Origin: Henricia sp. BOLD:AAB3569
Taxonomy: Eukaryota; Echinodermata; Asteroidea; Spinulosida; Echinasteridae
DNA: 64,000 nt
NCBI GenBank assembly: GCA_037783545.1
Contig: JBBELK010000026.1
Location: forward strand, 62,001-126,000
Direction: 5' to 3'
The position numbers and the translations under genes were made by a program. Each line of letters starts with the position of its first letter. Position 1 is the first letter of the stretch. Positions 3,408 to 57,080 of this stretch are shown here, in pieces. Under the pieces are notes generated by a model. That model ran no database searches, had not been told where the DNA came from, and saw only the letters and a list, made by a program, of their open reading frames with translations.

Positions 3408-3935
3408 AGGCCCAGTGGATCATTTGCAATGACCCCAAAAAGTAATCGACGAGTTTACAGGGGAAAGGTTCTGAAAGTAAAGATTGAATTAATAGCAACT
3501 ACCCAATAAAATGTTTTCGCTCAAAATTATATAATTTTACCAGAAAATAATCCGTAAAGATGAAATTATTTAGATCGTTTGCAAACGATTTACTTATTTT
3601 TGGTTCGCATCTACGCGGTCCAAAATACATGGGCGCTGTGTACTCCGCGTGCGTGTTCCAACGCGATGCATTTTGATGGAGCGCGCGCAGACGCAGTATA
3701 TGATGTGCGCCACAGAGTGCATGACGCAAGCCACATAGTACCCGATCAACCGAGAACGAATATCTGAAACACCCCGCCAAGACCAGGAAAACGCATGTGG
3801 ATTTTCATGGTTTTTTTTTACCTGGTACATTTGACAAAGCTGAAATTTCTTCGGATGAGTTTGTTGATGTCTTTCTTTTGTTTTATAATGGTTTTATTGG
3901 CAGAATCGCTCAAAAACAGATCATCTACAGGGCCT
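3408..3935. mobile_element. TTAA-flanked non-autonomous transposon, copy A
   Basis: TTAA at 3404-3407 and 3936-3939 flanks an element starting AGGCCCAGTGGATC and ending CTACAGGGCCT. A TTAA duplication with short G/C-rich termini is the hallmark of piggyBac-type insertion. A second copy lies inverted at 56571-57080 and matches along the whole length. Copy A sits at the 5' edge of the LINE remnant that follows, so it inserted into or beside it. Confidence 0.8.
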
Positions 3936-8748: not shown

Positions 8749-8879
8749 TAGTCGCCAGTGTATTTTCAGTGGCTGTCGCGCGAGCTACTCGCTTGAGTGC
8801 TATACGCGGACACCTTTTTTGATTCGTGCCACACGCTTTCGCCGGACCACGTTGTGGCCGACTTCATGCACGCCGAGCT

Positions 8880-10136
8880 ATGGCAAGTACCAACGAAGCA
8901 GTATTGCAAATCCAACCCTCTGAGGACGAAGGGCTACTACTTGAGCAGCTGCAAAATGAACTAGCAATAACGCCTCATGATACGAGCAAACCAACTGCGG
9001 CTCGAAAGCGCACTGCCAAACGCAAACATTTGGAACCCGATACGGCTTGCACACCTGCAAAGAAACTGCCTAAAAAACAAGAGTCCGACCTACGCGAAAC
9101 AGTAGCGTCTTTGCAGCAAACGGTTGCCTCTTTAGCTGAAGCTTTTGCACAGCGCAACGCATATGCACAAGTGGGTCCCGCCAACGCTGCTCAAGCACTC
9201 GATTTTGGTACAGAACTAAGTGACGGCGAAATTATTGAGGATTATGAGAATTTTGTCGTACCCGAAAGGGGCGAAACCTCAAATGTACACCCTGACCAAG
9301 GTGACGAAACGTACACCGAAGGTGGCCTGGATAATTTGCTGGCGGGCGGACAAACAGATGAATTGCTGACCGAAATGGCGGCATTGATTGGAGGCGATGA
9401 CCAAGACAGCCCCTCTATTAATGAACAATTGGCAAAGACAATTAATTCTCTGGCCAGAGGCAAGGTACAGAATGAAAAGCTTGAAGAAAAACTTAAACTG
9501 TATAACAGACCAAGCAACTGTGAAAACGTGTGTTTAACTAGAGTAAACCCAGAAATATGGGGCATTCTCAAGCCACAGACAAGAGCACGAGACGTGAAAT
9601 TTCAAAAGATTCAGAATTCTTTTGTCAAAGCAATGGTTGCCATTACAATGGTTGCAGAACAGCTGTTGAAAGCTCGTAACAATAGAGACGAGAAAAGCAT
9701 TGACACTGCACAAATGATTAGAATGCTTGTAGATGCAGTCGCTATTTTGGGGGCGGGCAATTCACAATTGAACTTGCGCAGACGTGACAATATCCGTCCT
9801 GAACTCAGTTCCAAATTCACCCCACTTTGCTCGTCTCAAGTAGCATGTACGAATTTTCTCTTCGGAGATGATTTGGTTCAAGCCTGTAAGGCTATTCAAG
9901 AGACCAACAAAATTGGTTCTAAGATTGATGGCTCTTCTTACGACATTCGTCGTTCAAACCGGTATTTGGCCGAGAATCCACCTATCGTTCGGGGAACTAC
10001 CGAACTCGGGGCACATACCCCGAACAGTCGAATTACAGCCGCCAGAGGGCGCCATACTACTACCGGCGATCGAGGCCGGAGTCAGATGTCACGGGGTTAC
10101 CGCACAAGCTACGACTACGATCAACGGTACCCCTAG
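8880..10136 (+). CDS. DIRS ORF1 (gag-like), 3' end interrupted
   Basis: This is the first ORF of the DIRS element. I choose the ATG at 8880 (MASTNEAVLQIQPSEDE); the frame is open further upstream but without another ATG. The protein has a basic stretch (AARKRTAKRKHLEPD), a short coiled-coil-like run around residues 60-80 (LRETVASLQQTVASLAEAFA), an acidic middle and an Arg/Gly/Tyr-rich tail. No zinc knuckle is visible. DIRS ORF1 is taken to be a nucleocapsid or gag analogue from its position; no catalytic role is seen. The last two residues before the stop (YP) come from the foldback element inserted at 10128. Beyond it the original frame resumes at 10677 as DQRQMRCEHQTPALR and stops at about 10724. 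Confidence 0.85.
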   Translation: MASTNEAVLQIQPSEDEGLLLEQLQNELAITPHDTSKPTAARKRTAKRKHLEPDTACTPAKKLPKKQESDLRETVASLQQTVASLAEAFAQRNAYAQVGPANAAQALDFGTELSDGEIIEDYENFVVPERGETSNVHPDQGDETYTEGGLDNLLAGGQTDELLTEMAALIGGDDQDSPSINEQLAKTINSLARGKVQNEKLEEKLKLYNRPSNCENVCLTRVNPEIWGILKPQTRARDVKFQKIQNSFVKAMVAITMVAEQLLKARNNRDEKSIDTAQMIRMLVDAVAILGAGNSQLNLRRRDNIRPELSSKFTPLCSSQVACTNFLFGDDLVQACKAIQETNKIGSKIDGSSYDIRRSNRYLAENPPIVRGTTELGAHTPNSRITAARGRHTTTGDRGRSQMSRGYRTSYDYDQRYP

Positions 10137-10676
10137 AACTATGGTGGACTGTATCCCCCATAGGTTATGTTGTTTTTTTCCAATATGGCGGCGCCTGAAC
10201 TTTAAGATCGGACCGATACGGTTTAAGCTAGCGCAATAATCCGCTCCCCAATCGCCACCAAACTCCGTCTGATAGTTCTTGAGACACTCGCCTTGCGTGT
10301 GTCTACGGAATTTCGGTACCATTCGTCCACTAAATTCTCCGAAAATAATGTTGGGAAATGAACGGTAACATGTGTGATGCATCCACATGCATTTTACCGA
10401 ATGCCTCAATCATGCATGTGGATACATCGCACATGTTCCCGTTCATTTCCCAACATTATTTTCGGAGAATTTAGTGGACAAATGGTATCGAAATTCCGTA
10501 GACACACGCAAGGTGAGTGTCTCAAGAACTATCAGACGGAGTTTGGTGGCGATTGGGGAGCGGATTATTGCGCTAGCTTAAATCGTATCGGTCCGATCTT
10601 AAAGTTCAGGCGCCGCCATATTGGAAAAAAACAACATAACCTATGGGGGATACAGTCCCCCATAGTTCTAGGGGTA
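10128..10676. mobile_element. 549-bp foldback element in DIRS ORF1, 9-bp target duplication
   Basis: The element is flanked by GATCAACGG (10119-10127 and 10677-10685). Its ends TACCCCTAGAACTATGG and CCATAGTTCTAGGGGTA are perfect inverted repeats. The arms stay almost exactly complementary for about 260 bp down to a small centre near 10390-10420. A 9-bp duplication with long inverted repeats resembles Mutator-like foldback MITEs, but no transposase is present. Insert plus duplication is 558 bp, a multiple of three, so the ORF1 frame downstream is unchanged; a stop inside the element still truncates it. Confidence 0.92.
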
Positions 10677-10719
10677 GATCAACGGCAAATGCGCTGCGAA
10701 CATCAAACCCCAGCACTTC

Positions 10720-11775
10720 GGTAAAGAAACCGGCCAACTAAACCAAAACAGAAGTGGAAATACCACTTCAACAGAAATCGTAAGTAAGTACCAATTGCTA
10801 AATGAGACGGCAATAGCAGGGCGACTGAACAAATTTGTTTCTGCCTGGGAAATGATTACTACCGATAAATTTATATTGGACACTGTCCAGCATTGCCATA
10901 TTGAATTTGATACCCCACCAGTGCAAACGAATGCACCACTGCCTATATCATTCAATGCATCTGAATCTCTCCAAGTAGATGCGGAGATAAAAACCCTGCA
11001 AAACAAAGGGGCCATTATACCTGTTCTCCCCTGTGCAGGACAATTTGTGTCCAATATCTTTTTAAGACCGAAAAAGGATGGTTCCATGCGACCAATTATA
11101 AACCTAAAGAGTTTGAATAAATTTGTCACTTACCACCATTTTAAAATGGAAACACTTGAATTTGCTCTGACTTTGATGAGGCCGAATTGCTTTATGGCAT
11201 CAATAGACTTGAAAGATGCATATTTCACAATACCTATCGCTCAAGAACATCAGAAATTTCTGCGATTTTATAGGAGTGAAAAGTTATGGCAGTTTACCTG
11301 TTTGTGTTTTGGTCTAGCGAGTGCTCCTCGAATATTTACAAAAGTAATGAAACCCGTAGCAGCAACATTACGGAATATGGGCCATATTTCGGCCAACTAT
11401 ATTGACGATTCATTACTTATTGGCGATACACATGAAGAATGCGCTAATAATGTGCGGGACAGATGTAAACTAATACAAAACTTGGGCTTTGTGGTCAATG
11501 TGAAAAAATCACATTTTGAACCGACACAGGTGTTGGATTTTTTGGGTTTCACTTTAAACTCGACAGAAATGACGGTTCGGTTACCACCTAAAAAGATTTC
11601 TGATGCAATAGAAGTATGTACAAACCTCAAAGAGCAGGACAACCCAACTATTTTACAAGTGTCACAAGTAATAGGAAAACTTGTTTCCTGTTTTCCAGCA
11701 GTCCCGCTGGGGCCTTTGTATTATAGGAACCTAGAAATTGCCAAAGATCTTGCTCTGAAAACTCACAAAGAGAAC
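10720..11775 (+). CDS. DIRS reverse transcriptase (N-terminal part of ORF2)
   Basis: The frame is open from at least 10720, overlapping the ORF1 end in another frame, with no clear ATG. RT landmarks in order: FLRPKKDGSMRPIINLKSLN, ASIDLKDAYFTIPI (first catalytic Asp region), CLCFGLASAPRIFTKVM, and the active-site NYIDDSLLIG at about 11396-11425. These follow the DIRS/Ngaro type of reverse transcriptase. It copies the element RNA into DNA. The frame ends at a TAA (11776-11778) that belongs to the inserted 817-bp element; the polymerase was originally continuous with the RNase H domain beginning near 12597. Confidence 0.9.
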
Positions 11776-12592
11776 TAACACGTTGCCTTCGGGTTGCGCT
11801 TTATTGGGCGTTTTTGGGCTATTACAAGCGTTTGAAGTATAATGAGCACGATCTGAAAGATGTTTAAAAAGTAGAATATAATGATCCACACAAACGTGCC
11901 TTAGAAATGCTTCAATTTTGCGTAATTTCCCGAAGCAGCACGCTCCGCCATTTATGAGAGTCAAAATCTTGACTCCCATAAATGGCGGAGAAATTATATT
12001 AGTCTTATTTCCAGCCTGGAGAAAGAAATAATTTTTCCTTCCTCCGTTGCGTGTGATGTGCCTGTTTTTTTAATTTGTGTCTACAATAACCATTGGGTAT
12101 AAATCATCCAAGTCCTTTCTATCGGTTTGTCCCATGACAATATTCTTACCCTGATTGGCGAGGTTTTCGTTTTTTCTTTTTTGACGCGTCTGCTGTGTTC
12201 TCTTGACGATCCATTTTTTGACAGCCAGTCGGTGTGTGTGTGTACGTGTGTTTACATTTCACACATGTCTCGGGAGGCGGAGAATGGTATGGTACCTTGC
12301 GTTCATCTGATAGGTTTACCTGACCACTGGCTACGGCGCCAGCCTAACTCCTGTTCGTCGCTGCATTTTGCCCACTACCCGGACGATCGTATTGACGGCT
12401 TGAAATACGTATACATTTCGCGGGACATGTAGTGGGGGTCAGAGGTCAGTGTTTGTTTTTTTAAATTACCATTCACTAATTATAACACATTAAATGTGTT
12501 TTATTGCAAGAACAACTCTTAATAAGTATAAGGAACACCCTCAAACGTGAGATTTCGTGAAATCTGAAGGCAACGTGTTCCTTTAACAGGGG
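11776..12592. mobile_element. TTAA-type palindromic element splitting the DIRS polymerase ORF
   Basis: The ends are TAACACGTTGCCTTC on the left and GAAGGCAACGTGTTCCTTTAA on the right. With a single TTAA restored at the site, the DIRS frame reads on without a break from KTHKEN to TGEAKSDLQWW. The left terminus seems to have lost a few bases. Inside, at 11942-11990, is a hairpin of CTCCGCCATTTATG and its complement around GACTCTCA-like arms. From general knowledge, a foldback family with AAAGGAACACGTTGCC ends and this hairpin centre is common in marine invertebrate genomes. The right half here is not the mirror of the left, so it has been rearranged or replaced. Confidence 0.75.
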
Positions 12593-12596
12593 AAGC

Positions 12597-13623
12597 AAAA
12601 TCTGACTTACAATGGTGGATTGACAATTTGAATTTCGTCTGTAGACAGATTTACCCCAAAACAACGACTGTTAACATTTTTACAGACGCCTCTTCAGAGG
12701 GCTGGGGAGCGACATGCTCCATAAATAATTTACATACTAATGGCCGTTGGAACGCTAAAGAAGCAATGATGCATATAAATTGCCTGGAACTTTTGGCTGT
12801 CCTCTATGCCTTGATGTCTTTCTCTCGGCATATAGAAAATAGAACAATAGCTGTGTTTTCTGACAATGCCACAGCAGTGGCATATATAAACCATATGGGA
12901 GGCTGCCATTCACTTGACCTTAATAATATAGCCAGGCAGTTATGGTTTTGGTGCATTTAGCACAATGTTTGGCCAGTTGCTCGCCACATTGCTGGCATTC
13001 ATAACACTGGTGCAGATAGTTTATCGAGGTTGTTTTCTGACCACCATGAATGGAAGTTAAATCCAAATACCTTCCAAGCCATTTTATCAGCGTTTAAGGT
13101 TTTACCTACAATTGATTTATTTGCCTCAAGGCTTAACTACCAACTTAGGCCATTTATTTCTTGGAATCCAGACCCTGAAGCAAAAACATGTGATGCTTTT
13201 TCAGTTTCCTGGACAAATGACTTATTTTATGCTTTCCCTCCTTTTGCCATTATTGACAGAGTTTTACAGAAGACGGAGATCGACGGAGCCACAGGCTTGC
13301 TGGTGTTCCCGCTGTGGAAAACACAACACTGGTTCCCAAGGTTATTGCGGCTTCTCATAACACATCCAATCATCTTACCGAGGACCAATCAACTGTTCCT
13401 CCCACATGCTCCAGGGAGACTCCACCCACTGGAGGGTCAATTGACACTTTGTGCAGCATACTTATCAGGCGATCCCTTATATCAACAGGCCTATCGCCGG
13501 GGACTATTGAGATCATCCTGGACTCGTGGAGACAAGGCACAAAGGAACAGTATTCTTCGGCCTTTTCAAAATGGCTGGATTTCTGCTCTAAACGATCAGT
13601 TGATCCCATTCAGGCACCTGTAA
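12597..13623 (+). pseudogene. DIRS RNase H and methyltransferase-like region, one in-frame stop
   Basis: It continues the RT frame. RNase H signs: VNIFTDASSEGWGATCS (first catalytic Asp), the NCLELLAVLYAL helix (Glu), and AVFSDNATAVAYINHMGG (Asp). A TAG at 12958-12960 falls just after LWFWCI. The same frame then continues HNVWPVARHIAGIHNTGADSL, so this is a point nonsense change rather than a natural end. From about 13090 comes the domain read as DNA N6-adenine methyltransferase-like in DIRS elements (TIDLFASRLNYQLRPFISW, YAFPPFAIIDRVL, WKTQHWFPRLL). Its 3' end overlaps the recombinase ORF in another frame, as usual in the group. Confidence 0.88.
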
Positions 13624-14447
13624 GCATAGCTCTTGATTTTCTTACGTGTCTGGTGCATTCAGGTGCTAAATATAGCACAATAAATACAACTCGAAGTGCA
13701 TTATCATGTTTGCTATGGCCAACCTCGGATAAGAAGTTTGGATCCCACCCATTAACAAGCAGGTTTATGCGTGGTGTTTATAACATTAAGCCTCAGCGGC
13801 CTCGATATTCCCAAATCTGGGACGTAGGACTGCTTCTTCGTTATGTAGGTACCTTGGAACCACTCAAATCATTAACACTAAAACAATTGACATACAAACT
13901 TGCTTGCTTATGTGCCCTTACCACTGGCCAACGTGTACAAACTTTGTCAGCGCTAGATTTAACGAATATCAGAATTGAGAATGGAAAAGTTACTGTGGAA
14001 ATCACCGATTTAATTAAAACATCAAGGATAGGGAAACCACAACCTGTTGTAGTATTGCTCCCCTATCCCCAAGATAAAACAATTTGTGTGGTTCGCACTT
14101 TGCTACAATACATAAAGCAAACTAAGTCCTTTCGGGGCTCTGATACCAGTCTTTTTCTGAGCCTGTCTTCTCCTCATAGGGGAGTCACCCCTTCAACCAT
14201 ATCAAGATGGTTGAAGCAATGTCTGGTTGACGCAGGGGTTGACGAGACCATCTTCAAAGCGCATAGCTACAGATCTGCGTCAACATCAGCAGCAGTACTG
14301 CAAGGTACTCCGATTGATTACATTCTGCAAACAGCAGGTTGGACGAACTCTATGACTTTTGCAAGATTTTACGATAGAAGTGACAATGTCATTTATACAA
14401 AGAAACCACAGGCCGAGTTTGCAGCGTCTGTTTTGACAAGAAAATAA
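13314..14447 (+). CDS. DIRS tyrosine recombinase
   Basis: An open frame encodes a phage-integrase-type recombinase, the integration enzyme of DIRS elements. The catalytic set is present: first Arg in TTGQRVQTLSALDL, the H-x-x-R in KAHSYRSASTSAA, and the nucleophile Tyr in FARFYDRSDN. The first part (SLISTGLSPGTIEIILDSW and following) looks like the SAM-like core-binding domain. The start is uncertain: the frame has no early ATG and overlaps the 3' end of ORF2 by about 300 bp, so the protein may come from frameshifting or a spliced or internal start. It appears intact. Confidence 0.9.
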   Translation: MENTTLVPKVIAASHNTSNHLTEDQSTVPPTCSRETPPTGGSIDTLCSILIRRSLISTGLSPGTIEIILDSWRQGTKEQYSSAFSKWLDFCSKRSVDPIQAPVSIALDFLTCLVHSGAKYSTINTTRSALSCLLWPTSDKKFGSHPLTSRFMRGVYNIKPQRPRYSQIWDVGLLLRYVGTLEPLKSLTLKQLTYKLACLCALTTGQRVQTLSALDLTNIRIENGKVTVEITDLIKTSRIGKPQPVVVLLPYPQDKTICVVRTLLQYIKQTKSFRGSDTSLFLSLSSPHRGVTPSTISRWLKQCLVDAGVDETIFKAHSYRSASTSAAVLQGTPIDYILQTAGWTNSMTFARFYDRSDNVIYTKKPQAEFAASVLTRK

Positions 14448-44571: not shown

Positions 44572-47500
44572 TCAACCTTCAAGTTCTGGCTCCTCGGCTC
44601 CCTCAAGTTCTGGCTCCTAATGTACAGAATTAGAAGGACCGTATCAAAGTTCAATTGTTCAATTTTCCTTTGATGTGTCCACTGCCCAACATCTCCGTCA
44701 CATCTTTCATTATCAGTCGAGTCTCTGTTGTAAAGATAAAAAATGAGATGTGTTTAATATACAAAGCACATGCTGACGTGACATGAATAAAACAAAACAA
44801 AATCGTGAGTATATTGCTTGGTCAGAATGGTTATTTCCTAATTCGCCCCGCTCAAACGGCAATAAAATATTTTCTATTTTGTCCCCCCTTCCCATTTCCA
44901 ACCCTGCGCAACCTGTGGAGAGAAACAACAAAATATACACACTGTTTTGGGGAGCACCGTACTCCGACGACAAGCAACGGACGCGCGCGTCCAGGACGCA
45001 ATGCTAAATGCTGCTAGCCTTGTACGTAGACTTACCTTTTCACAGGTTATGATACCTGTTTGGGCGCCTTTCTTTATTGCCAACCTATACGTCTGTTGTT
45101 CCCACTCTTGCGTTGGCATGGGGTGCCAGCTGCAGCAAGAAAACAAAAACTGCAAAGCTCAAGGCCGTTAGATTCGTAAATACACCGTCAATCGGCAGAC
45201 GGACCCTCATCTTAAGAAAAAATTGGGCTGTCCGATGCGTGTAGTCGAAAACAGTCAAGTGACCTTCCCGCCTTCCTTAAACTACCTCAACACCTCTGCA
45301 TACCTATGCAAATAGGAACTCTGACATACAATAGAAAATTAAATTATTTCCTAATTCGCCCCGCTCAAACGGCAATAAAATATTTTCTATTTTGTCCCCC
45401 CTTCCCATTTCCAACCCTGCGCAACCTGTGGAGAGAAACAACAAAATATACACACTGTTTTGGGGAGCACCGTACTCCGACGACAAGCAACGCTCAATAC
45501 ACAATGCTCCCCACCTCAAGGTCAAAGAACGGGAACATGAGTCCGTAGAACCATTGATTTTATTGCTGAATAATTAATATTTGTATCTGAAATTAATGGC
45601 AAGTGTTAACTTAAATAATGGTTAAGCAGTTGTGATGTCCCTTGGACATTATGCATACCGTACGAGGTACCACTAAAACGTTTCCTAGTTGGTGTAAAAT
45701 TCTATACTGCAAGTTCCAGTAAATTGACAGTAATTACTTGATCATATTTGTGCGTCGTTATGGACACAAGACTCTATCAATACCTCTTCGCTCGCCGTTT
45801 GAAATATATGTATATTTAAAATATAATACATAATGCAAGGGGTAGAAAAAACCATACTTTCTCTGGATCATTCCATGAATGTCAATATATAACAATATTT
45901 CAAGTAAAACCGTACCTTCACACATTCGTTTTCTGTGAAACTATCCCCGCTATATTGAGGATCTATGCTAATCGTTTAAATGCACAGTTTTACTGATAGT
46001 ATGCAGAATTACAACTTTCCAAGATATCTGCCATGCGAGCATATACATGCAAGACAACACCAATGGGTGTCAAGCCGAATTTATATGTGAACATGGTGAA
46101 TATAGTCCTATATATTATATCTGTCATGCGATCATGTAATAGGACTTCGGGCTCGTCGCTCTCTAATACCTGACATAAGGGCAAAACAGCGTATATACCA
46201 TGCGTCTTTGTAACTATCCAGCTCCAACTCAAATATCTGTCATCTTGGAGAACCCATCACTCATGTTGTCGACCATGCGACTTGGGTTTATAACTTTCAA
46301 CAGTTTTGTAATTGTAATCCTTTAAGCTATTCGCGATGATAATTTGAAATCTGAGCCAAATATTTTATCGCAAACAATTATATGCAAGAGCACACAAAAT
46401 ACGACCCTCAAACTTACGCGTATTCCTGCGACCATGTGAGACAACACCATACGGATCACTCACGTAATTATAACGAATGTCACGTGACCATATCATGCGA
46501 ATTAATAACTATCAGAAAATACAAAAGATTCATCTTGTTACCGCCTGCATAGAATACCACTCGGATTTATTAGTGTAATAATTTAAAACATCCATCTTGC
46601 GACCATGCGGATATGTAAGTATATGATTTCAAAACATTAAACTTGTAACCGCCTGATATAACACCACGCGGATTTATAACTATCATAATTCAATACATAG
46701 ATCTCGTAACCGCCTGATAGAACACCACGCGGATTTATAACTATCAGAATTCAAAACATTCATCTTGCAACTAGTAATAGAATACCATGCGGATTTGTAA
46801 GTGTAAGAAATTCGAAACATTCATCTTGTACCAATTTGATAGAACACCATGCGGATTTATAACTATCAAAATTCAAATCATTCATCTTTTAACCACTTGA
46901 TAGAACACCATGCGGATTTGTAACTATCAGAATTCAAATCATTCATCTTGTAATCACCTGGTAGAATTCGAACACCATGTGGATTTTAAGTGCACGAATT
47001 CAAAACATTCATCTTGTACCACTTGATAGAACACCATGCGGATTTATAACTATCAAAATTCAAAATTTTCATCTTTTAATCACCTGGTAGAATTCGAACA
47101 CCATGTGGATTTTAAGTGCACGAATTCAAAACATTCATCTTGTACTACTTGATAGAACACCATGCGGATTTATAACTATCAAAATTCAAAATCTTAATCT
47201 GTTAACCACTTGATAGAACACCATGCGGATTTGTAACTATCAGAATTCAAATCATTCATCTTGTAATCACCTGGTAGAATTCGAACACCATGTGGGTTTT
47301 AAGTGCACGAATTCAAAACATTCATCTTTTAACCACCTGACAGAACACCATGCGGATTTTAACTATCAGAACTGAAATTATCTGCCATGAGAACATGTGA
47401 GAACATCAAGCGAATCTCATTCAATGTTTATCATGTGAATCGTATGAGGTAACATACGGGTTAATTAATCAATTTAAACTCACGTTTGTTACGTGACAGT

Positions 47501-49510: not shown

Positions 49511-50222
49511 TTTCTCAGCGTTTATGTATTCACTCCAGGGGCCATACGCCAAACAAATATCACTACAACCGGCTTCGTCTTTGCGTTATACATAGAAAAC
49601 GATAAAGGACTAAAACTGCTCAAAATTAGTGGCATAGTAACCAGTATCATGATTTTTTGAAACATCAACGGAAAAACCTCGTGTACAAAACATATGAGAC
49701 TGATTGAAACTTTTCTAAGTGTTTTCTAAGAAAATGTTTCACACTGCCAATTAGTGTTCCTCCATCAACTCTGCACCCACAGGCAAGTTTGATTAGTTAT
49801 TTTAAAGAATAACTTTCATGGTCATTTTCCAAATTCTTACCACTACAGCTTATCTCGGCCCTTTCTTTGTCGCCATAATCGCGAACTAATTGTGACCAAA
49901 ACATGTAGTGCACCATTAACCATGTTTAAAAGCTGAATATCTGGAATGTTGAGATCCTATATTATATATACATGTATCAGCTTAATTCTTCTCTGCAATG
50001 TGTATTGCCGATTTATTAAGAAATTCAACATATTCGTCCAAGACGTAAAACAAATTTTATACTGGATATTTAGTTCCATTTTACCGTAATTGAATCAGCA
50101 CAAAATTTCTTTTATCTAATCTGTTTCTTTGTTCTGCGTACTTAACTCAGTGTGCATGTAGCCTAGCACTTCTCCGCTCGCTTCTCTTGTCCCACGCAGC
50201 TTACACGGTACATGGGTAGTAC
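49511..50222. other. No recognisable gene
   Basis: AT-rich sequence between the candidate leader exon and the large palindrome. Nothing is supported. Confidence 0.4.
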
Positions 50223-51058
50223 TAGTCCGGGTGCCAAACCCCTATTTTGGCCTGAACCTTGCAGTGAGAGTTAAAGTTTTTTTCTTTGCTGATTATTATA
50301 CCCTGGGGGGTTGTCTTCAATTTCCAGGTGGATGACCGCCGGTCACCATTGAGCAATTTTTTTTCTTAACCCTTTTGTGTTGAACCCCCAAAATCAAAGA
50401 TGTCTCTAAAAATGTGTGTATCGAACATAAAAAGCCATGTAAAACAGTTACTATACTACTTATGGCAATAAGTGACCATTCAAAATGTAGGTACTCTCAC
50501 CCGCTTTCAGATTATGTAAGAGATTTAGAACATACCTTTTGGTTCAAGGGGTCACAGGGGTCAGAATTGTTACATAACTTGAAACCCTTAAATGTGGGCG
50601 TGGCCTTAATTAAGTACTAATTACGTCGTAATTAGTGAATATTTTGTATGATTCTATCTTGCATCCTCAAGAGTACATCACTGGAAGTTTTTATACCAGT
50701 TTACAATCCCATGTGATGATAGGGGTTTGTCTGGTACGGGTTCAAAGATGACCCTTTTTCATAAATTTAACAGGTTTGCGAAAAAATGAAAAAACAGCTT
50801 ATCAATGAAAAACAAATTATATTCAGGAACAACTCAAATTTACATTGCACTTCGGATGAAGTAGAAGTAAATTAATTAACTAACTAAACATTTAACATTG
50901 GTTTGACATGGGAGATGGGGTCAAAGGTCATTCAAGTACTTAAATTTTACAAATGTGACAAATGTCCCAAAACCAATCAACCATCATTATTTGATATCAC
51001 ATGCTTTGTGACTTAGACTAGACTATACATCAACATGTGACTAGAGGGACATTGATCT

Positions 51059-52611
51059 CTAATGATCTGCTCTCGAACAACCTGTGCTGTAACAGGCACA
51101 GAACATTGTACATGGCAAATGGACAACATCTTTGCAAGTGCACCTTCTTGCGCAAGGGGGGTCGTTTTCCTCAAGCCATCTCCCACAGAATAGCTTGATA
51201 ATATGGGCGCGTTTGACATTCTCATGGAATGCCTCCGACGGTTGTCGGCGGAAGCGAACACAGTTTTGGGGATGACGTGACACCTTTGCCATTTTTGGCA
51301 GCCCATATCTGTATACGCATCTCTGACATTGTTGCCACATTCTTTGTACCATAGCATGCCGACATGAATGTTGTCACTTGTTTGTAGACATCTTCTAGGT
51401 TGGAGGTGATGACCCCAAGAGCAGCCAAGGAGGTATATCCGGCCAGAAGAACTTTGATAACTTTCCCCTTTCCAATGCCAAAGTAGGTTGCCACGGTATC
51501 GCAGCCCGAAAGGGCATGAGCTGGGAGAAGATTGTGTACAATCTTACTATTTACTTTTGCTGTCTCACGTATGTCGATGACCGTCCTGCCTTTAATGGGA
51601 GATTCCATGATGACTGGAACTTGGCATAGTAATATACAAGGAGTACGAAGACATCGGTGTCGTCAGACATCACTGTGATGGATTTCCCTTCTAGACTGCA
51701 TCGCAACACCTGTTGAACAATAATGTTGTCGGCCTCCTCGTGGTTGGTTGCAAGGTCATGGCGCATTCGGTTCTCCTCATTCTGAATCTCAACAGGGCAG
51801 TTATTTTCTCCTGTGATAACTAACTTATGTTTCTTGGTGTAATCTGTGTGGAAAAGCCTGTCCTTGCATAGTTCTTCAACTATGATCTGGATCAGTTGCT
51901 TCTTATTCTTTGTGACGGTCAATGCAACTTTCTGGGCTGGCAATGTAGTGTTTAGCTTGAGATGGTGGACTCGACTGGCTCCGGCCTCTCTTGCACCTCT
52001 GGTTCCGGTCGAACACTAGGTACACATCGTAGTCTTGCAAAAGTTTTTGAATACGCTGTTTCACATTTGAGACATAGTCCTGAACAATGCCATCTGCTGG
52101 CCAATGGATCACCCAGAGCAGAGCGGAACCATCTATAACCAACACGTCAGTCGTTCCAGCGCACCTACTGGATACTTCCACTTGGAGACTTTTCTTCAAC
52201 TGACTTATTCTTGGCAATCCTCATCCTATCTTCTGTAAACATGGATGTTGGCACAGGTGAAAGTTCATAGGAGAGAACATCCTTGATGTCAATGTCTCGC
52301 GAACTTGACATTAGCCCAATAACCCGTGCATAGATGGCATTTATGTCTGCGATCTTGTCTTTCCCAATGGAATTGGCCTGCTTGACACTCATTGTAACAA
52401 CCTTCTTTGAAATGGGTCCATAAAATCCATCTGGCCACTTGTTCTCAAATTCCTTCATCAAGAGTCTTCCAATTTCTACCGACTTGTGCACGTTCACTTC
52501 ATCCTTGCCAATCTTTCCACTTACGATGTTGAATATTCCATCTGGGTGATCTGCCGGATCCATGGGGTCAATGCACATCTCTAGCTTTTTGTGAATGCCG
52601 TCGCATCGGAC
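51059..52611 (-). pseudogene. PIN/flap-nuclease-like gene, left arm copy (broken)
   Basis: Frames in order: MCIDPMDPADHPDG, KFENKWPDGFYG-like text, VLVIDGSALLWVIHWPADG, then a frameshift from a 26-bp deletion after YLVFDR, then THEEADNIIVQQVL, SDDTDVFVLLVYYY, HALSGCDTVATYFGIGKGK and a Cys-rich end (PCTMFCACYSTGC). The acidic residues in IDGSALL, EEAD, SDDTD and SGCD are arranged as in PIN/FEN1-like nuclease folds. I know this protein type from multicopy families in corals, hemichordates and amphioxus, function unknown. The copy is also missing sequence before the Cys cluster. The N-terminus lies beyond the palindrome centre and is lost. Confidence 0.75.
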
Positions 52612-54269
52612 TTGGAATATTCAACATCGTAAGTGGAAAGATTGGCAAGGATGAAGTGAATGTGCACAAGTCGGTAGAAATTGGAAGACTCTTGATGAAG
52701 GAATTTGAGAACAAGTGGCCAGATGGATTTTATGGACCCATTTCAAAGAAGGTTGTTACAATGAGTGTCAAGCAGGCCGTTTCCATTGGGAAAGACAAGA
52801 TCGCGGACATAAATGCCATCTATGCACGGGTTATTGGGCTAATGTCAAGTTCGCGAGACATTGACATCAAGGATGTTCTCTCCTATGAGCTTTCACCTGT
52901 GCCAACATCCATGTTTACAGAAGATATGATGAGGATTGCCAAGAATAAGTCACAGTTTAAGAAAGGTCTCCAAGTGGAAGTATCCAGTAGGTGCGCTGGA
53001 ACGACTGACGTGTTGGTTATAGATGGTTCCGCTCTGCTCTGGGTGATCCATTGGCCAGCAGATGGCATTGTTCAGGACTATGTCTCAAATGTGAAACAGT
53101 GTATTCAAAAACTTTTGCAAGACTACGATGTGTACCTAGTGTTCGACCGGTACCGTGACTTCAGCACAAAATCTGGAACCAGAGGTGCAAGAGAGGCCGG
53201 AGCCAGTCGAGTCCACCATCTCAAGCTAAACACTACATTGCCAGCCCAGAAAGTTGCATTGACCGTCACAAAGAATAAGAAGCAACTGATCCAGATCATA
53301 GTTGAAGAACTATGCAAGGACAGGCTTTTCCACACATATTACACCAAGAAACATAAGTTAGTTATCACAGGAGAAAATAACTGCCCTGTTGAGATTCAGA
53401 ATGAGGAGATCCGAATGCGCCATGACCTTGCAACCAACCACGAGGAGGCCGACAACATTATTGTTCAACAGGTGTTGCGATGCAGTCTAGAAGGGAAATC
53501 CATCACAAGTGATGTCTGACGACACCGATGTCTTCGTACTCCTTGTATATTACTATGCTCAAGCTAAGCTCCAAGTGCCAGTCATCATGGAATCTCCCAT
53601 TAAAGGCAGGACGGTCATCGACATACGTGAGACAGCAAAAGTAAATAGTAAGATTGTACACGATCTTCTCCCAGCTCATGCCCTTTCGGGCTGCGATACC
53701 GTGGCAACCTACTTTGGCATTGGAAAGGGGAAAGTTCTTCTGGCCGGATATACCTCCTTGGCTGCTCTTGGGGTCATCACCTCCAATCTAGAAGATGTCT
53801 ACAAACAAGCGACAGCGATCATGTCGGCATACTATGGTACAAAGAATGTGGCAACAATGTCAGAGATGCGTATACAGATATGGGCTGCCAAAAATGGCAA
53901 AGGTGTCACGTCATCCCCAAAACTGTGTTCGCTTCAGCCGACAACGGAGGCATGCCATGAGAATGTCAAACGCGCCCATTATCAAGCTATTCTGTGGGAG
54001 ATGGCTTGAGGAAAACGACCCCCCTGAACTGGACCCCGAGCAATTTGGGTTTAAGAAGGAACCACTAACCAAGACCCTAACACCTACTAGTATATAACAC
54101 TTCCAGAAGATAAGGCGAGTGCTCCAGAATATGTACTAAACTTATGAAGTGTGGTTGTTCCAGTGATCGTGCTTGCGCAAGAAGGTGGTCTTGCAAATAT
54201 GTTGTCCCTTTGCCATGTACAATGTTCTGTGCCTGTTACAGCACAGGTTGTTCGAGAGCAGATCATTAG
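52612..54269 (+). pseudogene. PIN/flap-nuclease-like gene, right arm copy (broken)
   Basis: It is open to 53519, keeping the YLVFDRYRDFSTKSGTRGAR segment that the left arm has lost. A one-base insertion near 53508 then stops the frame at ITSDV, and the homology continues at once in the next frame (SDDTDVFVLLVYYYAQAKL, HALSGCDTVATYFGIGKGK, SPKLCSLQPTTEACHENVKR, ENDPPELDPEQFGF). A further stop and shift precede the Cys cluster MKCGCSSDRACARRWSCK ... CTMFCACYSTGC, ending at TAG (54267-54269). Its lesions differ from those of the left arm. Confidence 0.75.
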
Positions 54270-55228
54270 AGATCAATGTCCCTCTAGTCACATAGCATGT
54301 GATATCAAATAATGATGGTTGGTTGATTGGTTTTGGGACATTTGTCACATTTGTAAAAGTTAAGTACTTGAATGACCTTTGACCCCATCTCCCATGTCAA
54401 ACCAATGTTAAATGTTTATTTAGTTAATTAATTTACTTCTACTTCATCCGAAGTGCAATGTAAATTTGAGTTGTTCCTGAATATAATTTGTTTTTCATTG
54501 ATAAGCTGTTTTTTTTCATTTTTTCGCAAACCTGTTAAATTTATGACAAAATTACCAGACAAACCCCTATTATCACATGGGATTGTAAACTGGTATAAAA
54601 TCTTCCAGTGATGTACTCTTGAGGATGAAAGATAGAATCATACAAAAAATTCACTAATTACGACGTAATTAGTACTTAATTAAGGCCACGCCCACATTTA
54701 AGGGTTTCAAGTTATGTAACAATTCTGACCCCTGTGACCCCTTGAACCAAAAGGTATGTTCTAAATCTCTTACATAATCTGAAAGCGGGTGAGAGTACCT
54801 ACATTTTGAGTGGTCACTCATTGCCATAAGTAGTATAGTAACTGTTTTACATGGCTTTTTATGTTCGATACACACATTTTTAGAGACATCTTTGATTTTG
54901 GGGGTTCAACCCAAAAGGGTTAAGAAAAAAAATTGCTCAATGGTGACCGGCGGTCATCCACCTGGAAATTGAAGACAACCACCCAGGGTATAATAATCAG
55001 CAAAGAAAAAAACTTTAACTCTCACTGCAAGGTTCGACCCCTTGGCACCCGGACTATACCGATGTGTTGTTCCGTGAAAACGGCAAAAATTCAGTAGTTG
55101 ACCATGTCTTTATCCAGTTGCCGGATCAACTAGCCCCATCAAAGTTGCTGTTGCTGTACGTTGAACAGCCCTAGCGAATCTTCTTTCGGGATATCAAGTG
55201 AACTTAACATTTCATTCAGACATTTCCG

Positions 55229-56570: not shown

Positions 56571-57080
56571 AGACCCTGTTTTTGAGCGATTCTGCGAATA
56601 AAACCATTATAAATCAAAAGAAAGACATCAACAAACTCATCCAAAGAAATTGTAGCTTTGTCAAATGTACCACGTTTAAAAAAAACACATGAAAATCCAT
56701 ATGCATTTTCCTGGTCTTGGCGGGGTGTTTCAAATATTCGTTCTCAGTTGATCGGGTACTATGGCTTGCGTCATGCACTCTGTGGCGCACATACTGCGTG
56801 TGCGCGCGATCCATAAAAATGCATCGCGTTGGAACACGCACACGGAGTACACAGCGCCCATGCATTTTGGACCGCGTAGATGCGAACCAAAAATAAGTAA
56901 ATCGTTTGCAAACGATCTAAATAATTTCATCTTTACGGATTATTTTCGGGTAAAATTATATCATTCTGAGCGAAAACCTTTCATTGGATAGTTGCTATTA
57001 ATTCAATCTTTACTTTCAGAACTTTTCCCCTGTTAACTCGTCGATTACTTTTTGGGTCATTACAAATGATCCACTGGCCT
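56571..57080. mobile_element. TTAA-flanked non-autonomous transposon, copy B (inverted)
   Basis: TTAA at 56567-56570 and 57081-57084 flanks AGACCCTGTTTTTGAG ... CCACTGGCCT. It is the reverse complement of 3408-3935 with small differences (510 against 528 bp). Confidence 0.8.

Follow-up and report, generated by a model that had tools for sequence, protein, structure and literature searches.

The window, the whole stretch of 64,000 nucleotides from Henricia sp. analysed here, harbors a palindrome at 50223–55056, whose arms, when compared with each other, form inverted blocks of 93–100% complementarity. Each arm is about 2.4 kb long, and the two are 1.7% substitutions apart (38/2227 differences). 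In a control of 20 mononucleotide shuffles, inverted self-matches of the element reached 34 nt at most. The first-pass annotation had described a giant palindrome of this kind, with an asymmetric centre, a 26-bp deletion in the left arm and a one-base insertion in the right arm, and the self-comparison bears out each of these points, the two lesions lying near 52005 and 53508. The features are as follows, where parent positions are those of the parent-like element C37, presented below.

50220–50222: left target-site duplication, TAC
50223–55056: whole mobile palindromic element, W type, 4,834 bp
50223–50253, plus strand: tip A, TAGTCCGGGTGCCAA and an A-specific stretch
50254–52602: left (A) arm, parent 32–939 and 1078–2559, with small internal losses
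51062–52578, minus strand: transposon gene fragment in the left arm, for the C-terminal third of a 1,458-aa protein, broken by frameshifts and stops
52001–52010: junction of the 26-bp deletion, left arm, common to the copy at locus L009
52541–52612: asymmetric centre; the innermost inverted blocks are 72 nt apart
52613–55035: right (B) arm, parent 2497–32, reversed
52614–54266, plus strand: right-arm fragment of the same transposon gene, protein residues 908–1458, broken
53507–53508: one-base insertion, right arm, common to L009
55036–55056, minus strand: tip B, TAGTCCGGGTGCCAAGGGGTC
55057–55059: right target-site duplication, TAC

The outer ends are identical, as had been noted (TAGTCCGGGTGCCAA), and measure 15 bp, instead of the 14 bp first given. 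Tips A and B diverge directly inside these ends, and the arms restart at 50254 and 55035. The largest additional difference between the arms is a segment of about 139 bp (parent 940–1077) that is absent from the left one. Tandem repeats inside the element are limited to one 36-bp array with an 18-bp period, at 50785–50820.

The first-pass annotation had proposed searching the genome for further copies with the same ends, and such copies exist. In the 741 Mb searched, the outer arm is present at 12 loci, namely ten palindromes, a 457-bp remnant and C37, which together are referred to as family 1. Eight of the palindromes have both ends and two lack one of them. The 30-base A tip, searched with up to three mismatches allowed, was found at 11 places, ten of them exact and one with a single mismatch. 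Three loci that carry the 14-bp end (L014, L017 and L020) did not match the L010 element and were not among the hits of the arm search. Exact 3-bp target duplications, read from the flanks, border nine of the ten two-ended copies of the family and include TAC, GTC, AAC, CAA and ATA; the exception is L011, with AAA and AAC. Two pairs of copies are nearly identical, the window element with L009 (99.67% over 4,845 columns) and L018 with L019 (99.96% over 5,581 columns), and within each pair the 1-kb flanks on either side have nothing in common at E up to 1e-5. The window copy and L009 carry both lesion junctions, and the ten other elements tested have neither. Between these two sister copies, matching arms differ at 4/2348 and 0/2423 positions, as against the 38 differences between the arms of the window, so that the window palindrome predates its last jump. 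The palindrome therefore moves as one unit and generates target duplications of 3 bp.

C37 is a non-palindromic element of 6,077 bp with a 451-bp terminal inverted repeat (TIR) and the target duplication CAA. It contains an open, single-exon frame of 1,458 codons, the one open full-length frame found among the 32 of 387 candidates scored. Its B end is rearranged, with two B tips, and its 5' kilobase occurs once in the genome. The palindromes align colinearly with the A half of C37: in the eight two-ended ones, the 3' half of the gene is doubled, its 5' end is missing and both parental tips are retained. The "PIN gene" of the window is the C-terminal third of the C37 protein. Diverged relatives of this gene occur in other TIR-bounded elements.

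The assignment of this protein to the PIN/flap nucleases, made from the letters alone, is plausible from its conserved acidic motifs, as the acids of HEEAD, DTD and GCD are invariant across family 1, family 2 and the relative at L023, but the library and PDB matches are weak and below every cut-off. The best library matches were NYN_YacP (E = 0.024) and DUF6589 (E = 0.011), and that to exonuclease 1 in the PDB had E = 1.4. Pfam and PDB searches gave nothing significant for a PIN, XPG or DDE domain in family 1, nor in the family-2 fragment, and no transposase profile matched the open 1,458-aa frame of C37. The L023 relative has a C-terminal CXC motif (E = 1.9e-4, under the curated cut-off), and its PDB search was without a match. 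A structure prediction for the 298-residue right-arm fragment of the window element, run with no alignment, reached a mean pLDDT of 32.3 and was discarded.

As to the class of the transposon, the 15-bp identical ends, the 451-bp TIR of C37 and the fixed-length target duplications at several sites are those of a class II TIR DNA transposon. PIF/Harbinger elements make 3-bp target duplications of the type TWA, and the duplications found here, which include TAC, GTC, AAC, CAA and ATA, do not conform to it. Academ and AcademX elements encode a large transposase-like protein joined to an XPG/FEN-like nuclease part and make short target duplications. The present elements, with a large protein, a putative nuclease part and short target duplications, may resemble them. 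Academ-type transposons average 5,565 bp in bivalves, according to the part of the source consulted (PMC10294476), and the literature matches listed include no palindromic element of the Academ type.

Derivatives of this kind are present in three or more families of the transposon group. Families 2 and 3, with protein identities of about 43–55% and 22–33%, respectively, also contain giant palindromes, at L025, L030 and L032 in the former and at L034 and L035 in the latter. Four of these five have 3-bp target duplications (L032, with AAA and ATG, does not), and four have two different tips. The fifth in this last respect, L025, carries two A tips, which a simple template-switch model does not predict. 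No palindrome was found in the family of L023, L024 and C64. At C1374, an inverted match pair lies 15 kb apart.

The centres of the family-1 palindromes are of two types, W and X. In the W type, the arms stop at unequal depths of the parent, at 2579 and 2497, and the junction is nearly blunt, with no visible inverted microhomology; L012, L013 and L022 have the same junction as the window, except that the window and L009 have lost 10 bp. The X-type centre reads GTTTTA-TTCATGTAG-ATAAAAC, with a loop of about 10 nt at an inverted TAT/ATA of the parent. With one centre nearly blunt and the other looped, a single mechanism may not suit all palindromes. The arms recombine, as shown by private substitutions shared by both arms and by flipped central spacers. 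Relative to the tips, L013 and L022 have the spacer in the opposite orientation to the window, L009 and L012, as does L035 compared with L034 in family 3. L016 has 17 private substitutions common to its two arms, as against 4 and 6 confined to one arm. Shared ones are fewer in the other copies, where one-arm substitutions exceed them, so that arm exchange is limited in most.

The reading that we favor, and consider probable, is that the element is a non-autonomous mobile palindrome of a long-TIR transposon with a 1,458-codon gene, which arose in repair and moved in trans. The model proposes that the gap that excision leaves, or a fork that has stalled, would come under repair, and that a strand re-entering via the B-side TIR would switch onto the A half, either through TIR homology or by snap-back at a short inverted repeat. 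The A half would in this way be copied twice while the B tip is retained, and the protein of the C37 element could then mobilise the product in trans. SNPs were used to look for the switch point within the TIR and located none, because the A and B TIRs are not informatively different.

Three other explanations fare poorly. One, suggested earlier and in keeping with the single asymmetric centre in which the arms join, is that a truncated gene was duplicated in inverted orientation once, at this locus. It is refuted by the sister copy L009, where the palindrome recurs, lesions included, at a second, unrelated site; with 10/12 family loci palindromic and target duplications around them, it is almost certainly wrong. 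Fold-back reads are a known cause of false palindromes in assemblies. An artefact of this origin has next to no chance here, as the arms are separated by substitutions and indels that recur at a second locus, and the target duplications lie outside the palindrome. The first-pass annotation had also considered gene capture by a foldback transposon; with a host PIN-domain gene as the captured one, the long self-complementary arms and the gene fragment within them would be suited to it. The ends do bound a transposon, and its target duplications are of 3 bp. The gene, however, was not captured: it is the 3' half of the transposon's own large gene, it aligns colinearly with the open frame of the family's non-palindromic element, and its diverged relatives belong to other TIR-bounded elements. 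Capture of a host gene is accordingly very improbable.

Two further proposals concern how the palindromes form and why they persist. In an ODIRA-like process, strand switching by snap-back or at a fork would occur at short interrupted inverted repeats, the long TIRs would not be involved, and the B tip would be regained later by recombination. The X-type loop at the inverted TAT/ATA and the two A tips of L025 speak for it, whereas the unequal arm depths of the W type, without visible inverted microhomology, and the B tip in 8/8 two-ended family-1 palindromes speak against it, and it stands as a tentative possibility, below even chances. It could also be argued that the palindromes are retained since a read-through hairpin RNA would silence the parent transposon, as Mu killer does with MuDR in maize, the precedent for such silencing in the portion of that study consulted (PMC3440606). 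This idea, which we regard as unlikely, fits an inverted duplication of part of a transposase-like gene with both TIRs, and also the finding of one open full-length frame. However, the arms face outward and the 5' end of the gene is missing from them, which means that transcription has to start outside the palindrome, and transposition alone accounts for the copies. In this transposon group, palindromisation might be a built-in outcome of transposition, by which autonomous copies turn into self-complementary mobile elements that double the 3' half and out-multiply the parent, their arms kept alike by recombination and their hairpin RNA perhaps silencing it, until families end as palindrome swarms around one intact copy. 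This wider generalization is speculative and unlikely.

That related transposons of the same genome have also become giant palindromes is out of the ordinary, and it might act back on the parent transposon. The three families share an anatomy in which the gene's 3' half is doubled and its 5' half is lost, mostly with both native tips kept, and so constitute natural replicates for studying inverted duplication by transposon repair and the survival of palindromes. Foldback elements of Drosophila have long inverted repeats made of short tandem repeats. Tetris, also from Drosophila, is likewise described, in the part seen, as having long inverted repeats (PMC4079207); unlike in Foldback and Tetris, the arms here are transposon gene sequence without tandem subrepeats, apart from the one short array. 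Galileo, of the P superfamily in Drosophila, is another parallel. The sections consulted report long TIRs that recruit internal and coding sequence (69 bp, and more than 500 bp in copy 147) and invoke gap repair with template switching for defective copies (PMC4168063). Galileo recruits part of the element and has target duplications of 7–8 bp, whereas here the palindrome takes up nearly the whole of it and the duplications are of 3 bp. Animal Pack-TIRs are also new mobile composites formed via gap filling and template switching, but, as far as the portion seen goes, they duplicate non-transposon sequence (PMC8277862), while here the element's own half is doubled. In the open-licence literature, searched by titles and abstract openings, no palindromic form of this transposon type is described among the matches listed. 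Long palindromes are reported to be rare and unstable in natural genomes, in the part of the source consulted (PMC10766186), in contrast with the multi-kilobase palindromes that jump and multiply here. The palindromes show the structure of Mu killer, which derives from MuDR in maize: an inverted duplication of part of its own transposase gene (here an inferred one) with two TIRs. Mu killer acts, in the part of the work consulted, as a single dominant locus, silencing MuDR in crosses (PMC3440606), whereas the present elements are multi-copy, mobile and spread over several families. If their hairpins yield small RNAs, they would amount to a Mu killer equivalent arising repeatedly from the transposon itself.

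The element at 50223-55056 belongs to a transposon family in which most copies are giant, mobile palindromes built from one half of the element. An inverted-repeat search of the window found blocks of 93-100% complementarity covering almost the entire stretch, the innermost separated by 72 nt, and the longest inverted self-match in 20 shuffles of the element was 34 nt, so that the palindrome described by the first-pass annotation is real. Both of its reported lesions are also present, a 26-bp deletion in the left arm and a one-base insertion in the right one, and the outer ends are indeed shared, although over 15 bp and not the 14 bp noted. In addition, about 139 bp found in the right arm and in the parent-like element are missing from the left arm. 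The features observed in the window are:

1679-2475: 330-bp inverted repeat, 98% complementary, 137-nt gap.
3434-3919 and 56576-57056: two copies of a dispersed repeat in opposite orientation, separated by 53 kb, blocks 92-95% alike.
8823-14447: three long open frames (437, 366 and 396 aa), all in one direction; probably a DIRS-like retroelement, because by eye the 366-aa frame resembles a reverse transcriptase and the 396-aa frame a tyrosine recombinase.
10128-10676: 265-bp inverted repeat, 97% complementary, 19-nt gap, between two frames of the putative DIRS-like element.
46602-47371: tandem array of about 12 copies of a ~61-bp unit.
50223-55056: giant palindrome, adjoined by TAC on both sides.

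The 741-Mb genome was searched for the ends and arms of this element. The 14-bp end occurs 26 times, 16 of these forming eight facing pairs with a spacing of 4.7-5.6 kb, and the same pattern read backwards does not occur in the genome. Two occurrences, L014 and L017 (contigs C171 and C266), share the same 25 bases outside the end, perhaps as haplotypes or parts of a larger repeat. Outer arm sequence is present at twelve loci, ten of which hold palindromes or a palindrome centre (window, L009, L011, L012, L013, L016, L018, L019, L021 and L022); only one end is present in L013 and in L022, and the second arm of L022 is reduced to 229 bp. Besides a 457-bp remnant, L015, the sole non-palindromic element among them is L010, on contig C37. 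Among all copies with both ends, 9/10 have exact 3-bp target-site duplications (TSDs: TAC, GTC, CAA, AAC, ATA, TAA, ATA, TAA, TAT), the other being L011, flanked by AAA/AAC. The window element is a transposon. Moreover, the palindrome itself has moved, recently relative to its own age, because near-identical copies lie in unrelated flanks: over the element, identity is 99.67% between the window copy and L009 and 99.96% between L018 and L019, and the 1-kb flanks on each side show no relatedness within either pair. The window arms differ from each other by 38/2227 substitutions, as against 4/2348 and 0/2423 when the same arm is compared between the window and L009.

L010 is 6,077 bp long, is flanked by the TSD CAA and has terminal inverted repeats (TIRs) that match over 451 bp (98.7%), as well as a 1,458-codon open frame. 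The B end of L010, with two B tips, has also been rearranged, so that it may not show the ancestral right end in full; at L010 6301-7077 two B tips face each other 775 bp apart, without TSDs of their own. The earlier reading, a PIN/flap-nuclease-like gene duplicated or captured, stands only in part: the same palindrome with both arm lesions recurs at L009, and the supposed PIN gene is the 3' part of the transposon's own gene (residues ~900 to 1458 of the L010 protein), of which the palindrome holds two oppositely oriented copies, both broken. The gene's 5' kilobase, on the B side, matched the genome only at L010. The C37 protein is the likely source of family-1 movement, since it was the only open full-length family-1 frame found among 32 scored of 387 candidates. 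The L023 protein (1,623 residues), a relative encoded in the same genome, aligns with it over the full length at 28% identity; conspicuous features are the conserved acids of HEEAD, DTD and GCD and a C-terminal CXC motif. These suggest a FEN/XPG-like nuclease part and would fit the AcademX group. Library profile and PDB searches gave no confirmation of either the FEN/XPG-like part or AcademX membership for the family-1 protein.

Family-1 palindromes have two kinds of centre. In the W type (window, L009, L012, L013, L022), the arms run from the ends to ~2579 (2559 in the window and L009) and to 2497 in parent (L010) coordinates; L012 and L013 have identical junctions, L022 has the matching one with a changed base close by, and the window and L009 keep it intact next to a 10-bp loss. 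X-type arms (L011, L016, L018, L019, L021) hold parent 1-1282 plus 2606 to ~4250, the 1282/2606 deletion being in both arms wherever an arm still spans that point and further losses being copy-specific, and they meet around a loop of ~10 nt located at a short inverted repeat, a feature best seen in L016 and L021. The two centres may represent two separate formations; alternatively, one older palindrome could have given both through deletion and arm conversion.

The arms of family 1 recombine. Judging from private substitutions in both arms versus single arms, exchange is strong in L016 (17 in both, 4 only in A, 6 only in B) and slight in most other copies: L011 (8; 44 and 26; plus a shared deletion), L021 (1; 9 and 15), L018/L019 (1; 25 and 14; plus a shared deletion), window/L009 (2; 11 and 23), L012 (4; 12 and 20) and L013 (4; 39 and 20). 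Substitutions common to both arms of one element could also come from independent re-formation at that centre, but this would leave the central spacer unflipped, whereas that of L013 and L022 is inverted relative to the tips when compared with the window, L009 and L012. As for how the palindromes arose, native tips A and B are both retained in 8/8 two-ended family-1 palindromes, and therefore the duplication must have begun inside the tips. The simplest route would be gap repair after excision with a TIR switch: the gap would be repaired from a sister copy, one end copying its A half, while the other would enter via the B TIR, switch to the homologous A TIR and copy the A half too. Its main rival, snap-back at a short inverted repeat, would suit the X centre better than the TIR switch.

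Giant palindromes also occur in other families. In family 2, the L025 palindrome (C842) encodes protein pieces that share 43-55% identity with family 1; its arms are 1,777 bp long, both tips are of the A type, and its TSD is ATT. L030 (TSD ATA) and L032 (no TSD, AAA/ATG), of the same DNA family, are palindromes as well, each with two different tips. A family-2 derivative in tandem, L026/L027 (C422:482001-497000, about three 3.3-kb units), has a further distinct centre with only ~86 bp still doubled, at most a palindrome remnant. L028, L029 and L031 have no large palindrome at their family-2 matches; away from its match, L029 carries a ~1.0-kb inverted repeat (430-2548, 92%). In the third family (L034, TSD CAA; L035, TSD GTT), protein identity is 22-33% with family 1 as well as with L023, one 18-residue piece excepted; both elements are palindromes that have arms of ~2.7 kb, two unlike tips and a ~250-bp spacer, which is inverted between L034 and L035. 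In the L023/L024 family, whose TIRs measure about 103 bp, all matches outside the TIR itself were on the same strand, and no palindrome was seen. Counting the L026/L027 remnant, six distinct centres were seen across families. Unless the palindromes are older than the family split, at least three formations would be required, one per family. The gene's 3' half is doubled in every palindrome found. Since it was C-terminal protein matches that had led to families 2 and 3, an 870-residue N-terminal query was also run, and close inverted pairs appeared only at family-1 X-type loci (52 scored of 136 candidates). At G000 C1374:54096-70548, C-terminal matches on opposite strands 15 kb apart mark a possible further palindrome.

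A palindromic swarm of this kind was not described among the matches listed in the open-licence literature. The TIRs of Galileo take up both internal and coding sequence, and its defective copies have been explained by gap repair with template switching (PMC4168063); the present palindromes go further in the extent of the element taken up. Mu killer, in which part of mudrA is duplicated in inverted orientation together with two TIRs, silences MuDR via a proposed hairpin RNA (PMC3440606), whereas the palindromes found here are mobile, multi-copy and recurrent.
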